A DNA stretch of 64,000 nt from Pseudoalteromonas piscicida (GTDB lineage: Bacteria; Pseudomonadota; Gammaproteobacteria; Enterobacterales; Alteromonadaceae): assembly GCF_002208135.1 (NCBI RefSeq), contig NZ_CP021646.1, forward strand, positions 3,432,501 to 3,496,500. Direction: 5' to 3'. The notes beneath the pieces are model-generated. The model did not search any database. It saw only the letters and a list, made by a program, of their open reading frames with translations, and had not been told where the DNA came from. This document shows, one piece after another, positions 49,470 to 54,827 of this stretch (within the stretch, counting starts at the first letter, position 1; each line of letters opens with the position of its first letter). The position numbers were made by a program, and so were the translations under genes.

Positions 49470-50327
49470 TTAGCTCATTGCGTTTTGCAGCTTTTTCATC
49501 GCTGACTTCTCTAGCTGGCGTACACGCTCTGCCGACACGCTATATTTCTCAGCAAGATCTTGTAGTGTTGCCTTTTCGTCAGCAAGCCAACGTGCGCTTA
49601 CGATATCTTGAGAGCGCTCATCAAGCGTTTTCAATGCTGCAAATAGGCGATTATGTGACTGCTCTTGCCACTGCTCTTGCTCAACTTCTTCGGCAAGGTC
49701 GCTACTTGTGTCTGTTAAATACTGTACTGGAGAGAAGTTACCCGCTTGGCTTTCGTCATCATCAGCAGATAGGTCAAAGCCCATATCTTGGCCTGCCATA
49801 CGAGACTCCATCTCGCGAACTTCTTTCTCACTTACACCAAGCTCGTTTGCAACCGTTGTCACTTCGTCTTGGTTAAACCAACCTAAACGCTTTTTATTTT
49901 TGCGCAGATTGAAGAATAATTTACGCTGCGCTTTTGTCGTCGCAACTTTAACAATACGCCAGTTCTTTAATACATATTCATGGATTTCTGCTTTAATCCA
50001 ATGTACCGCAAAAGATACGAGACGCACACCCACGCTTGGGTCAAAACGCTTTACTGCTTTCATCAATCCAATATTACCTTCTTGGATTAAGTCAGCCTGA
50101 GGTAGGCCATAGCCCGAATAACTTTTTGCGATGTGAGCAACAAATCTCAAATGAGACATAATGAGTTGCTTAGCCGCGTTAAGATCCCCTTCTTCCTGAA
50201 GACGTGTCGCAAGTTTTTTCTCTTCCTCAGCGCCAAGCATAGGTATTGTGCTTACAGATTGAAGGTAACCTTCAACACTTGCGCTCTGCTGCCCAGTTAG
50301 TGCTAATGCGTATAAATCTTTAGTCAT
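49470..50327 (-). CDS. rpoH: Heat-shock sigma factor RpoH (sigma-32)
   Basis: A 285-residue group 3 sigma factor. Conserved regions are visible: [44 protein letters not shown] region 2 (core and -10 binding; given here by the landmark [17 protein letters not shown]), the WFNQDEV region 3 block, and ...[43 protein letters not shown] region 4 (landmark [16 protein letters not shown]). It directs heat-shock gene transcription. GAGG precedes the ATG. It lies downstream of ftsX, as in E. coli, but a perfect CIRCE element sits 35-61 bp upstream of the start codon. Confidence 0.97.
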
Positions 50328-50361
50328 GTTTCACCTCAGTGATAAACCGTTTCGTGTATAT

Positions 50362-50388
50362 TTAGCACTCTAACATCTAGAGTGCTAA
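50362..50388. promoter_or_regulatory. CIRCE element (HrcA operator) upstream of rpoH
   Basis: TTAGCACTC-N9-GAGTGCTAA, an exact match to the canonical CIRCE inverted repeat. HrcA represses chaperone operons through CIRCE in many bacteria but is absent from E. coli. Here it would lie in the rpoH promoter or 5' leader. Confidence 0.9.
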
Positions 50389-50577
50389 ATGCAATCTACT
50401 TTATCTGATTTTTAAAATCAACCTTTTTAGAAGAACTTCAAAAATAAAAGATAACCAATTGAATATTAATGAAAATATCGAATTAACTAGGCTTCTTTTT
50501 ACGATATTATTTTTTTATGACAGTGCTAAATTTAATTAGTTCTGATTGTTTAAGTGCTAAAATCTGATAGTAATTGG

Positions 50578-50608
50578 CAATCGACTGCTACACTTTAGCA
50601 GTCGATTG
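50578..50608 (-). terminator. Inverted repeat after ftsX
   Basis: CAATCGACTGCTA / TAGCAGTCGATTG, a perfect 13-bp stem with a 5-base loop 18 bp beyond the ftsX stop codon. No T tract follows, so efficiency as a terminator is doubtful. Confidence 0.55.
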
Positions 50609-50625
50609 GTGTTTGTAGCGTTCAA

Positions 50626-51612
50626 TCATACCTTTTCAGGTTCAATCTCTTTGATATAACGGTGTACAGAAAGAAAGGAGCCTACAAACCCTAAAGTAAT
50701 CGCAGTGCCAAGTAGCACTAAAAGTTCATTCCCTGCCATTCCCTGAAGCACAAAGTTGCTTTGATATACCCCAACAACCGTAGATACGGCTGACTCCAGC
50801 CACCACAACATAAGAGCAACGCAGATAAAGGCAACCAAACCACCGACTATGCCATACCATACACCAGTCCAAAGAAACGGAGCCTGAATAAAGGTATTGG
50901 TCGCTCCCACCAGTTTTAGCACTTGGATTTCTTCTTTTTTATCCATGATGGATAAGCGTATGGTATTGCCAATAATCAAGATAACGGCGCTAAGTAATAG
51001 GAATCCCACGGTGATCACACTTTCTTTTAGTAACCCCAGTAGTGCATTTAGGCGCTCTAGCCATTCAATATCCAGCTTACCAAACTCAACCTCGCGCTCT
51101 TTTTCTAGCTTAGCAAGTAACTCTGTTGCTGCTTGGGGTTTTCTAAAACGGCTAACAGGCGTTACCAGTACAACATTAGGCAATGGGTTTTCTTCTAAAT
51201 AGTTAAGCGCCTGACCAAAGCCAGACGTTGATTTAAATTCATCCAAAGCTTGGTTTTTACTTATCAGTACTACTTTTTCTATTTCTGGATAAAGTGCAAG
51301 CCGCTTCACCAAGGTTTGTGTCTGTGCCTCTGTCATTTCATCTTTAACGAACAATGATATTTCAGATGCCTCTTTAAACCCACTACTTACCTGCTGTACA
51401 TTTTTCACTACCACATAAAGCGTCGCGGGCAATGTCAGGCTGAGTCCCAAAACTAGAATAGTCATTAAAGAGGCCATTGGCGTACGCCACATTTCCCCAA
51501 GGCTCTGTACACCTTGACGAATAATCATCAAACAAAAAAAGTAAAAATGATGAAATACCGACTTTTTACTCTGTTCAGCCTGATTTCCTCGTCCTTTAAA
51601 CAGCAAACTCAT
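50626..51612 (-). CDS. ftsX: FtsX, cell-division ABC-like membrane subunit
   Basis: A 328-residue inner-membrane protein with a cytoplasmic basic N-terminus, helix 1 near residues 45-68, a periplasmic domain (EIEKVVLISKNQALDEFKS region) and three C-terminal helices. FtsX with FtsE activates septal peptidoglycan hydrolases through EnvC. It overlaps ftsE by four bases (ATGA). Confidence 0.94.
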   Translation of the reverse strand: MSLLFKGRGNQAEQSKKSVFHHFYFFCLMIIRQGVQSLGEMWRTPMASLMTILVLGLSLTLPATLYVVVKNVQQVSSGFKEASEISLFVKDEMTEAQTQTLVKRLALYPEIEKVVLISKNQALDEFKSTSGFGQALNYLEENPLPNVVLVTPVSRFRKPQAATELLAKLEKEREVEFGKLDIEWLERLNALLGLLKESVITVGFLLLSAVILIIGNTIRLSIMDKKEEIQVLKLVGATNTFIQAPFLWTGVWYGIVGGLVAFICVALMLWWLESAVSTVVGVYQSNFVLQGMAGNELLVLLGTAITLGFVGSFLSVHRYIKEIEPEKV

Positions 51613-52399: not shown

Positions 52400-54565
52400 T
52401 TATTCTTGACTGAACAATGCCTCGATAAAATCATCACTCTTAAAGGTGCGTAAGTCATCAATGCCTTCACCTACACCAATATATCGAATTGGCACCTTAA
52501 ACTGATCCGCCACAGCAAAGATAACCCCACCTTTGGCTGTACCATCAAGCTTAGTTAACGTGATACCAGTTAAGCCAACCGCTTGATTAAACAGTTTTAC
52601 CTGACTAATCGCATTCTGACCAGTTCCGGCATCAATCGTCAACATCACTTCATGTGGCGCATCTGGGTCTAACTTTTTCATTACTCGAGCTATCTTTTCA
52701 AGCTCTTGCATTAGGTTATCTTTATTTTGTAATCGACCCGCTGTATCCGCTATTAATACATCGATATTTCTCGCTTTAGCGGCTTGAAAGGCATCAAATA
52801 CCACCGACGCAGAATCAGCACCAGTATGCTGGGCAACAACAGGGATGCTATTTCTTTCACCCCATACCTGCAACTGCTCTACTGCAGCCGCGCGGAAAGT
52901 ATCGCCAGCCGCCAACATGACAGATTTACCTTCGCTTTGAAACTGTTTGGCAAGCTTACCGATTGTCGTCGTTTTACCAACGCCATTTACGCCGACCATT
53001 AAGATAACGAAAGGTTTCTTATCGGCAGGGATCTCAAGCGGTTGCTCTGCCGTTTTTAAGATCTCTGACATTTCTTTTTTCATTAGATCGTATAAAGCTT
53101 CACCGTCTTTTAACTGCTTTCTATCAGCAGCATCAGTCAGGTTATCTATCAGCTTCATCGTGGTTTCAACACCAATATCTGCCGTTAGCAATTGCGTTTC
53201 TAGATCTTCGAACAACTCATCATCGATTTTCTTGCCTTTGAATATCGAAGCAAAGCCTGAGCCGATATTGACCTTGGTTTTCAACAAGCCTTTTTTAAGA
53301 CGGGAAAAGAACCCTTCCTTTTTTGGCTTTTCTTGTTCTTTAGCCAATTGTGCTTGACGTTCCGCCTCTTCACGCTCAGCTTGTTCTTTCGCAAGTTGTG
53401 CCTGACGCTCTGCTTCTTCACGCTCGGCTTGTTCTTGAGCGAGTTTTGCTTGACGTTCCGCCTCTTCACGCTCAGCTTGTTCTTTTGCTAATTGCGCTTG
53501 ACGTTCTGCCTCTTCACGCTCGGCCTGTTCTTTCGCAAGTTGTGCCTGACGTTCTGCCTCTTCACGCTCAGCTTGTTCTTTCGCCAACTGTGCTTGACGT
53601 TCCGCCTCTTCACGCTCGGCTTGTTCTTGAGCGAGTTTTGCTTGACGTTCCGCCTCTTCACGCTCAGCTTGTTCTTTCGCAAGTTGTGCCTGACGCTCTG
53701 CCTCTTCACGCTCGGCCTGTTCTTTCGCAAGTTGTGCCTGACGTTCTGCCTCTTCACGCTCAGCTTGTTCTTTCGCAAGTTGTGCCTGACGCTCTGCTTC
53801 TTTACGCTCGGCTTGTTCTTGAGCGAGTTTTGCTTGACGTTCTGCTTCTTCACGCTCGGCTTGTTCTTGAGCGAGTTTTGCTTGACGTTCTGCCTCTTCA
53901 CGCTCGGCCTGTTCTTTCGCAAGTTGTGCCTGACGTTCTGCCTCTTCACGCTCAGCTTGTTCTTTCGCAAGTTGTGCCTGACGCTCTGCTTCTTTACGCT
54001 CGGCTTGTTCTTTCGCAAGTTGTGCCTGACGCTCTGCTTCTTTACGCTCGGCTTGTTCTTGAGCGAGTTTTGCTTGACGTTCTGCCTCTTCACGCTCGGC
54101 CTGTTCTTTCGCAAGTTGTGCCTGACGTTCGGCCTCTTCACGCTCGGCTTGTTCTTTAGATAATTGTGCCTGACGTTCCGCCTCTTCACGCTCAGCTTGT
54201 TCTTGAGCGAGTTTTGCTTGACGCTCTGCTTCTTCACGCTCAGCTTGTTCTTTCGCAAGTTGTGCCTGACGCTCTGCTTCTTCACGCTCGGCCTGTTCTC
54301 GCTCTGCTTCTTCACGCTCAGCTTGTTCTTTCGCAAGTTGTGCCTGACGCTCTGCTTCTTCACGCTCGGCCTGTTCTTTAGCTAATTGTGCCTGACGTTC
54401 TGCTTCTTCACGCTCGGCCTGTTCTTTAGCTAATTGCGCCTGACGCTCTGATTCCTCACGCGCAGCCTGCTCCTTTGCTAACTGTTCTTGACGCTCCGCT
54501 TCTTGTTGCTCTTTGTCGGATTTACCAAAGCCCAACCAAGATAAAAATTTGTTTTTCTTTCCCAT
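52400..54565 (-). CDS. ftsY: FtsY, signal recognition particle receptor GTPase with large repeat domain
   Basis: A 721-residue FtsY, against 497 in E. coli. The C-terminal NG domain (about residues 430-721) is complete: RLKKGLLKTKVNIGSGFASIF starts the N domain (landmark KVNIGSGFASIF), G1 is GVNGVGKTTTIGKLA, followed by DTFRAAAVEQL, DTAGRLQNK and TKLDGTAKGG. It receives SRP-ribosome complexes at the membrane. Residues about 22-428 are some 25 tandem copies of the 16-residue unit EQAEREEAERQAQLAK, a highly charged probable long coiled helix replacing the acidic A domain. The ATG at 54565 is chosen; a GTG at 54571 adds two residues. Divergent from rsmD, as in E. coli. Confidence 0.95.
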   Translation of the reverse strand: MGKKNKFLSWLGFGKSDKEQQEAERQEQLAKEQAAREESERQAQLAKEQAEREEAERQAQLAKEQAEREEAERQAQLAKEQAEREEAEREQAEREEAERQAQLAKEQAEREEAERQAKLAQEQAEREEAERQAQLSKEQAEREEAERQAQLAKEQAEREEAERQAKLAQEQAERKEAERQAQLAKEQAERKEAERQAQLAKEQAEREEAERQAQLAKEQAEREEAERQAKLAQEQAEREEAERQAKLAQEQAERKEAERQAQLAKEQAEREEAERQAQLAKEQAEREEAERQAQLAKEQAEREEAERQAKLAQEQAEREEAERQAQLAKEQAEREEAERQAQLAKEQAEREEAERQAQLAKEQAEREEAERQAKLAQEQAEREEAERQAQLAKEQAEREEAERQAQLAKEQEKPKKEGFFSRLKKGLLKTKVNIGSGFASIFKGKKIDDELFEDLETQLLTADIGVETTMKLIDNLTDAADRKQLKDGEALYDLMKKEMSEILKTAEQPLEIPADKKPFVILMVGVNGVGKTTTIGKLAKQFQSEGKSVMLAAGDTFRAAAVEQLQVWGERNSIPVVAQHTGADSASVVFDAFQAAKARNIDVLIADTAGRLQNKDNLMQELEKIARVMKKLDPDAPHEVMLTIDAGTGQNAISQVKLFNQAVGLTGITLTKLDGTAKGGVIFAVADQFKVPIRYIGVGEGIDDLRTFKSDDFIEALFSQE
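53334..54505. repeat. 48-bp tandem repeat array within ftsY
   Basis: About 25 in-frame units of 48 bp encoding AEREEAERQAQLAKEQ and variants (QAKLAQ, KEAER, QLSK), with one shortened unit near the 54290-54310 region. Adjacent units are nearly identical at DNA level, pointing to recent expansion or homogenisation by slippage or unequal recombination. Confidence 0.95.
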
Positions 54566-54827
54566 ATTCACTTATGACCGTGTTAGATAAATTGCATAAA
54601 CCCAAAGCAAAATGTTGATGATCTTGATACCATACTCGAAAACGCCAATCCGCATCAGCTTATTGCTTTTGCTTGGATTGATATCACACTTAATTTTGGG
54701 CTCGAAAGGCAAGCCGAGGATGGCAACCTTAGTGCTTAGACAAAATTGCGTGCAAGTGTACCATGTTCCGTAAGGATGAAAAATCCTGACACCAAGAACC
54801 TTTAATAAAGAAGCAAATTACGTCGCT

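Follow-up and report, generated by a model that had tools for sequence, protein, structure and literature searches.

The locus analysed here raises a question about the order of heat-shock control. HrcA and sigma-32 are usually described as parallel controls of chaperone genes, groESL being the constant target of HrcA. In this stretch of Pseudoalteromonas piscicida DNA (64,000 nucleotides, called the window throughout), a repeat matching CIRCE, the operator sequence of HrcA, lies before rpoH, the gene of sigma-32 itself. Is this repeat an operator, does the genome encode a repressor to bind it, and what else would that repressor control?

A perfect CIRCE element in front of rpoH

A pattern scan of the window found the inverted repeat TTAGCACTC-N9-GAGTGCTAA at 50362-50388, with 0 mismatches to the CIRCE consensus. 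Since rpoH runs from 50327 to 49470 on the minus strand, the element lies 35-61 bp before its start, and both the perfect match and the distance are as the preliminary description had given them. The features of the locus, in window coordinates, are:

49470-50327, minus strand: rpoH, heat-shock sigma factor sigma-32, 285 aa (TIGR02392, 420 bits with a cut-off of 323.1 bits; PRK06596, 443 bits)
50332-50337, minus strand: Shine-Dalgarno sequence GAGGTG of rpoH, kept in the genus
50362-50388, no strand assigned: CIRCE inverted repeat, predicted HrcA operator of rpoH (pattern scans and genus conservation)
50393-50398, minus strand: putative sigma-70 -10 element TAGATT, ending 4 bp before CIRCE (read from the sequence; columns kept in the genus)
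50416-50421, minus strand: putative -35 element TTGATT, with a 17-bp spacer (read from the sequence and from genus conservation)
50522-50530, plus strand: half-site AGTGCTAAA, one CIRCE arm (sequence match)
50553-50561, plus strand: half-site AGTGCTAAA, 31 bp from the first (sequence match)
50578-50608, no strand assigned: 13-pair hairpin between the ftsX-like gene and rpoH (fold and scan; terminator-like on the plus strand, no T run on the minus strand)
51612-50626: upstream gene which we take, from general knowledge, to be ftsX-like

The element was the single match in the window at up to three mismatches, where shuffles gave an expectation of 0.01, and, across the whole genome (5,317,048 bases, two contigs), the sole one with no more than two mismatches. 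Four other genomic sites had three mismatches, and a control pattern gave 2. Together with the genus conservation described below, this rarity rules out a chance match as the origin of the element. A comparison of 50200-50700 with Rfam gave no match at E-values up to 1. Beyond the ftsX-like gene, at window 52400-54571, lies a presumably FtsY-like gene whose first half holds a long run of charged repeats (AEREEAERQAQLAKEQ-type units).

Throughout the genus, a -10-like T-A-x-A-T-T is kept upstream and ends 4 bp before CIRCE, so that rpoH transcription should start at the operator. Near the position of the putative -35, some relatives carry TTGACA or TTGCAT. The window's own -35/-10 pair is weak and was not reported by a generic promoter scan. 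Lying just after the -10-like element, CIRCE would be transcribed, and the predicted fold of the rpoH leader is stable for an RNA of this composition (-18.3 kcal/mol, z -3.33). Both points fit an alternative in which the inverted repeat is not an operator but acts chiefly through the RNA, as a 5'-terminal hairpin of the rpoH transcript that controls its stability or translation; we return to it once conservation has been described. Nearer the gene, TTTATCAC ahead of GAGGTG (window 50332-50346) is kept in the genus; it could pair around the rpoH ribosome-binding site, as a possible thermosensor.

The genome encodes one divergent HrcA

A search of the genome returned one HrcA-family gene, of divergent sequence and outside the window (C1:2210702-2211634; L007:7700-8635). 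On one side lies a divergent gene that we take to be nadK, and next on the other what is presumably grpE, both named from their protein sequences. The position before grpE is the usual place of hrcA. A missing hrcA, which the preliminary description had named as grounds for abandoning HrcA control, is thus ruled out.

How far this protein resembles known HrcA depends on the part considered. Scored without its first three residues, it reached 41.7 bits with the HrcA C-terminal domain PF01628 (gathering score 22.2 bits) and 117.6 bits with the HrcA equivalog TIGR00331, whose cut-off is 197.2; all 12 same-genus genomes of the family sample described below also fell under 197.2. The solved HrcA 1stz was matched best by residues 2-84, the winged helix (phmmer, E 2.3e-17). 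An AF2 model (mean pLDDT 84.2) likewise retrieved 1stz as the best Foldseek match, at an E-value of 1.7e-20 but with a TM of only 0.54 and an rmsd of 8.4. The protein thus has the N-terminal winged helix and the overall fold of 1stz. Its nearest database relatives are about 50-70% identical over the full length and are Pseudoalteromonas proteins where named, and the next proteins are about 33% identical. The HrcA tree flags long branches meeting, and for this reason was not used for the origin of HrcA.

In the GroE titration model of HrcA, as set out in the passage concerned of PMC6032397, the activity of the Bacillus subtilis and C. trachomatis proteins depends on GroEL. In the HrcA of the window's genus, the C-terminal IGPTRM signature is replaced or degraded and, since TIGR00331 scores also stay under the cut-off, the dependence on GroEL may have been lost.

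The element is conserved and co-occurs with hrcA

Among 60 same-genus genomes, CIRCE was present at up to two mismatches in 59 and HrcA in all 60. In the exception, G016, whose assembly has 180 contigs, rpoH itself was not matched either (E 1e-70), so that the miss may be a gap. A second match with two mismatches was present elsewhere in 4 of the 59 genomes; the control pattern matched in one genome. Where CIRCE was present, at 65 genus loci (59 from the genus sample and 6 from the family sample), it ended 32-36 nt before the rpoH start in every case. The element thus lies in the start and promoter region of a heat-shock gene throughout these relatives, and the absence of conservation in close relatives that the preliminary description had considered does not apply. 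Information content over the 59 distinct genus regions is 1.99 bits per base in the arms, compared with 0.93 in the spacer and 0.73 in the 60 bp upstream. The spacer begins with T and ends with A in 59/59, extending the repeat by one pair.

These data bear on two alternatives. One is that the rpoH CIRCE is a relic, or is bound by another protein; although the divergence of HrcA could be taken that way, among 59 distinct regions the arms are kept near-absolutely and the flanks diverge, and the element and hrcA are absent together (see below), so that we find this scarcely credible. The other, the RNA hairpin introduced above, also seems to us quite unlikely: the arms are nearly invariant in sequence, beyond what pairing explains, and the presence of the element tracks that of hrcA, which a pure RNA element would not need. 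The preferred reading is that the element very probably serves as operator for the genome's one HrcA-family repressor, acting on rpoH.

Co-occurrence was followed in two larger samples, which share 35 genomes. In the family sample (246 genomes, 12 of them same-genus), CIRCE at up to one mismatch was present in 54, before rpoH in 53 of these, and hrcA in 52. Both hrcA and the rpoH CIRCE were found in 52 genomes, CIRCE only in 1 and hrcA only in 0. The one genome with an rpoH CIRCE and no detected hrcA, G168, has an assembly that is 95% complete. In G181, a genome with no hrcA detected, a perfect CIRCE-like sequence (L083:1501-1527) lies between two genes as an extended hairpin that may be a terminator; because of this copy, the CIRCE sequence alone is not proof. 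In G029, hrcA is split over two frames (C12:1805476-1806389) and CIRCE is kept with 1 mismatch; both may be decaying, or the sequence may contain an error. No hrcA was detected in 28 family genomes, of which 27 gave rpoH. G168 alone among them had CIRCE upstream of rpoH at up to two mismatches; in the remaining 26, the best upstream site had at least 5.

The order sample (394 genomes) gave the same picture. CIRCE at up to one mismatch was found in 46 genomes and strong hrcA in 47, a count that leaves out thirteen weak matches (20-24 bits over a short stretch). Every one of the 46 also has strong hrcA; in the one remaining hrcA genome, G551, the CIRCE before rpoH has two mismatches. In family f7, CIRCE is present in 31 genomes; its place was viewed in 19 of these and in G551, and 20/20 have one before rpoH. 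Genus g50 is divided, with both hrcA and CIRCE in 4/8 genomes and neither in the other 4/8. In two of the latter, after the shared TGAACTT-N2-TTGAC flank and in register with the sisters' CIRCE, the sequence has 5 mismatches (G143) or 8 (G108). With 8 mismatches in register, the G108 sequence was rejected as a clear remnant and is a trace only. The remaining two (G234, G249), aligned with their sisters, have no in-register remnant.

CIRCE precedes rpoH well beyond the genus

Named genomes were searched for stretches in which a perfect CIRCE precedes an RpoH-like start, with a pattern designed to exclude most members of the window's genus; at least 120 were obtained. When 80 of these were checked, 77/80 had an RpoH-like open frame. 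Among the matches listed, the record titles are mostly of Beta- and Gammaproteobacteria (Rhodocyclaceae, Halieaceae, Woeseiaceae, Dyella, Polynucleobacter, Rheinheimera, Alishewanella and others), with one Desulfuromonadaceae. Predicted control of rpoH by HrcA is widespread in Beta- and Gammaproteobacteria among these matches, which suggests that rpoH is a common HrcA target there.

The promoters differ between these bacteria and the window's genus. GGAACTT is the sigma-E -35 consensus. At up to one mismatch it was found in 46/79 CIRCE-rpoH contexts among the matches listed (L321-L400), versus 1/79 for shuffled motifs, and in 44 of those 46 it lies 8-10 bp before CIRCE. At this distance, the operator would cover the sigma-E -10; the repeat would then overlap the promoter, a further point against its being mainly an RNA hairpin. 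A sigma-E promoter in the window's own genus was considered and rejected, GGAACTT not being enriched there (5/55 versus 2/55 in the control). The promoter before rpoH is sigma-E-like in many relatives and sigma-70-like here.

rpoH is the sole CIRCE target found in this genome

The preliminary description had also suggested looking for CIRCE before groESL, dnaKJ and grpE. None is there: in this genome, the best sites upstream of groES, dnaK, hrcA and grpE have 7-9 mismatches, which rules out even a weak CIRCE at groESL, dnaK, hrcA or grpE. The best groESL site has 8 mismatches, so that the CIRCE before groESL that marks the chaperone regulon of HrcA is missing. These genes instead carry sigma-32-like sequences, identified by pattern match without a shuffle control: CTTGGGT-N14-CCCCAT at groES and CTTGAAT-N13-CCTTAT at dnaK, both weak with 3 mismatches, and GTTGAAA-N13-CCCCAT at grpE and CTTGAAA-N12-ACCCAT at hrcA, each with 1. 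At hrcA, a sigma-32-like promoter at up to two mismatches was present upstream in 31/40 genus loci, which are related and not 40 independent cases, versus 1/200 letter shuffles. It appears from these patterns that sigma-32 drives hrcA.

Other genomes show where CIRCE does and does not accompany chaperone genes. In nine other hrcA-bearing genomes of the family, no CIRCE precedes groES (best sites 7-9 mismatches). The groES starts compared here leave out G094 and one of the two copies in G312, which were not parsed. In the sister families f7 and f14, all four genomes tested carry a perfect CIRCE upstream of groES, and f7 has 12 further loci with CIRCE at up to one mismatch before groES. Family f20 has a single CIRCE per genome, before rpoH in 4/4 genomes having one. 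Upstream of dnaK, CIRCE was found in 0/20 genomes (best 6-9 mismatches). Because groES lacks CIRCE in the window's family and the single CIRCE of f20 is at rpoH, groESL control seems, on these operator patterns, to have been lost, or never held, in both families, while rpoH control stayed.

Additional half-sites upstream of rpoH

Besides the operator, the preliminary description had placed two half-sites at 50522-50530 and 50553-50561, and both are present. The 9-mer AGTGCTAAA occurs in 6 copies in the window (1.22 expected): two CIRCE arms, the two named half-sites and two elsewhere (14246, 50915). Across the genus, an 8-mer half-site has 29 copies in 17/59 distinct upstream regions (15,340 bases), where shuffled motifs averaged 0.5 copies with at most 17, and the rpoH coding sequence has 7 in 16,900 bases. 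The half-sites upstream of rpoH are thus enriched and non-random, with positions that are not conserved. Decayed second CIRCEs at a fixed place are unsupported as their origin, since their places differ from relative to relative, and several relatives have them as the arms of hairpins close to the ftsX end. At two loci, the repeat has an N10 spacer. In many members of f7 (L139, L140, L142, L145-L151), two tandem CIRCEs with a 31-bp period stand before rpoH; the window's two half-sites are likewise 31 bp apart.

The genus HrcA is rich in cysteine

Four cysteines (C19, C40, C111 and C198, in MKLN-start numbering) are invariant in 26/26 aligned clade members and in 17/17 of a second alignment, and two more near the C-terminus (mostly C290 and C293) are present in 24 and 21 of the 26. 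In 33 other HrcA proteins, the six columns hold cysteine in one only, at C40, while the C198 column also has it in 5/27 family relatives. Clade members (48) have 5-12 cysteines each, versus 0-2 in 59/61 database relatives. Nearer relatives have 3-8 (27 family proteins) and 1-4 (30 order proteins), mostly in other columns; these counts come from parsed rows, in which 75/90 HrcA proteins were recovered, 18/30 in the genus. One cysteine column is common to 27/27 family relatives. An unusual cysteine-rich HrcA is a feature of this genus and is new here.

Could this protein bind CIRCE, yet no longer read GroEL, and control rpoH as a sensor of redox state or metals by virtue of its many cysteines? 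The invariance of the four cysteines, their rarity in those columns outside the clade, the high count per protein and the lost C-terminal signature all favour this. However, the nearer relatives are fairly cysteine-rich too, and the residues may be neutral or structural, since their columns are not clearly more invariant than those of other residue types (Cys 4/10, W 5/5, M 5/8). We hold it rather unlikely; it is compatible with the operator reading and differs from it in the signal. A fuller version, in which the DNA-reading head was kept, the C-terminal signature lost and C19, C40, C111, C198 and mostly C290 and C293 gained, would have a Pseudoalteromonas regulon shrunk to rpoH under a rebuilt repressor, possibly a redox or metal sensor coupling oxidative or metal stress to sigma-32 inside a loop from sigma-32 to hrcA and back, by repression, to rpoH. 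This we put forward as a tentative possibility, on the unlikely side.

Discussion

The operator reading leads to the following model. HrcA, whose activity GroEL presumably maintains here as it does in B. subtilis, would bind CIRCE over the rpoH transcript start and block initiation. Heat or unfolded proteins would draw GroEL off, HrcA would release its operator and rpoH would be transcribed; sigma-32 would then switch on groESL, dnaK, grpE and hrcA itself. Once GroEL had been restored and new HrcA made, rpoH would be shut down again. Since the chaperone operons lack CIRCE, HrcA would reach the heat-shock response only through rpoH, and the sigma-32-like promoter of hrcA together with the rpoH operator predicts a loop in which sigma-32 activates hrcA and HrcA represses rpoH. 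Binding, repression, GroEL dependence and dynamics are all inferred here from sequence.

The prediction of HrcA control over rpoH made in the preliminary description is thus strengthened by the presence of hrcA and the conservation of the element. Its two-layer cascade holds in part: HrcA would stand above sigma-32, but above sigma-32 alone, because groESL, dnaKJ and grpE have no CIRCE.

How does this compare with known systems? The HrcA/CIRCE regulon of groESL and hrcA-grpE-dnaKJ, as in B. subtilis, shares with the present case the operator sequence, the HrcA-family gene before grpE and the operator at the promoter or start. It differs in that here groESL, dnaK and hrcA have no CIRCE, rpoH is the sole target found and hrcA is apparently driven by sigma-32. 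E. coli rpoH has several promoters, including a sigma-E one, as well as an mRNA thermosensor and control by FtsH proteolysis. As here, E. coli chaperones are driven by sigma-32, and its sigma-E promoter has a counterpart in the sigma-E-type -35 before rpoH in many relatives. E. coli differs from the window's genus, which shows no enrichment of that -35, and has no HrcA match: it was not matched in a search of 14 control genomes.

The closest precedent is Geobacter sulfurreducens, where a CIRCE upstream of rpoH was predicted in 2004 by Rodionov and colleagues, with a table position of -51 (PMC545781). According to the parts of that paper dealing with this regulon, Geobacter resembles the present case in its perfect CIRCE before rpoH and differs in having CIRCE also at its chaperone operons, groESL and hrcA-grpE-dnaK-dnaJ; groESL is there termed the only constant HrcA member. 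HrcA stacked above rpoH, as predicted for Geobacter in those parts of PMC545781, is therefore not new in kind. What is new here, judged by the CIRCE targets found, is a regulon reduced to rpoH alone. A literature search for CIRCE before rpoH in Beta- and Gammaproteobacteria found none. These regulons are the subject, going by its title, of Permina and Gelfand 2003, where an earlier description is possible.

Instead of acting in parallel, HrcA and sigma-32 seem in this genus to be stacked in series, with HrcA keeping only the sigma factor. The joint absence of hrcA and CIRCE, the traces in two hrcA-less sisters, the CIRCE at groESL in sister families and the differing promoter types together form a natural series in which the contraction of a regulon onto its master regulator could be tested. 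On the patterns described here, an old heat-shock repressor appears, in this marine bacterium and its relatives, to have come off the chaperone genes and to guard rpoH alone.
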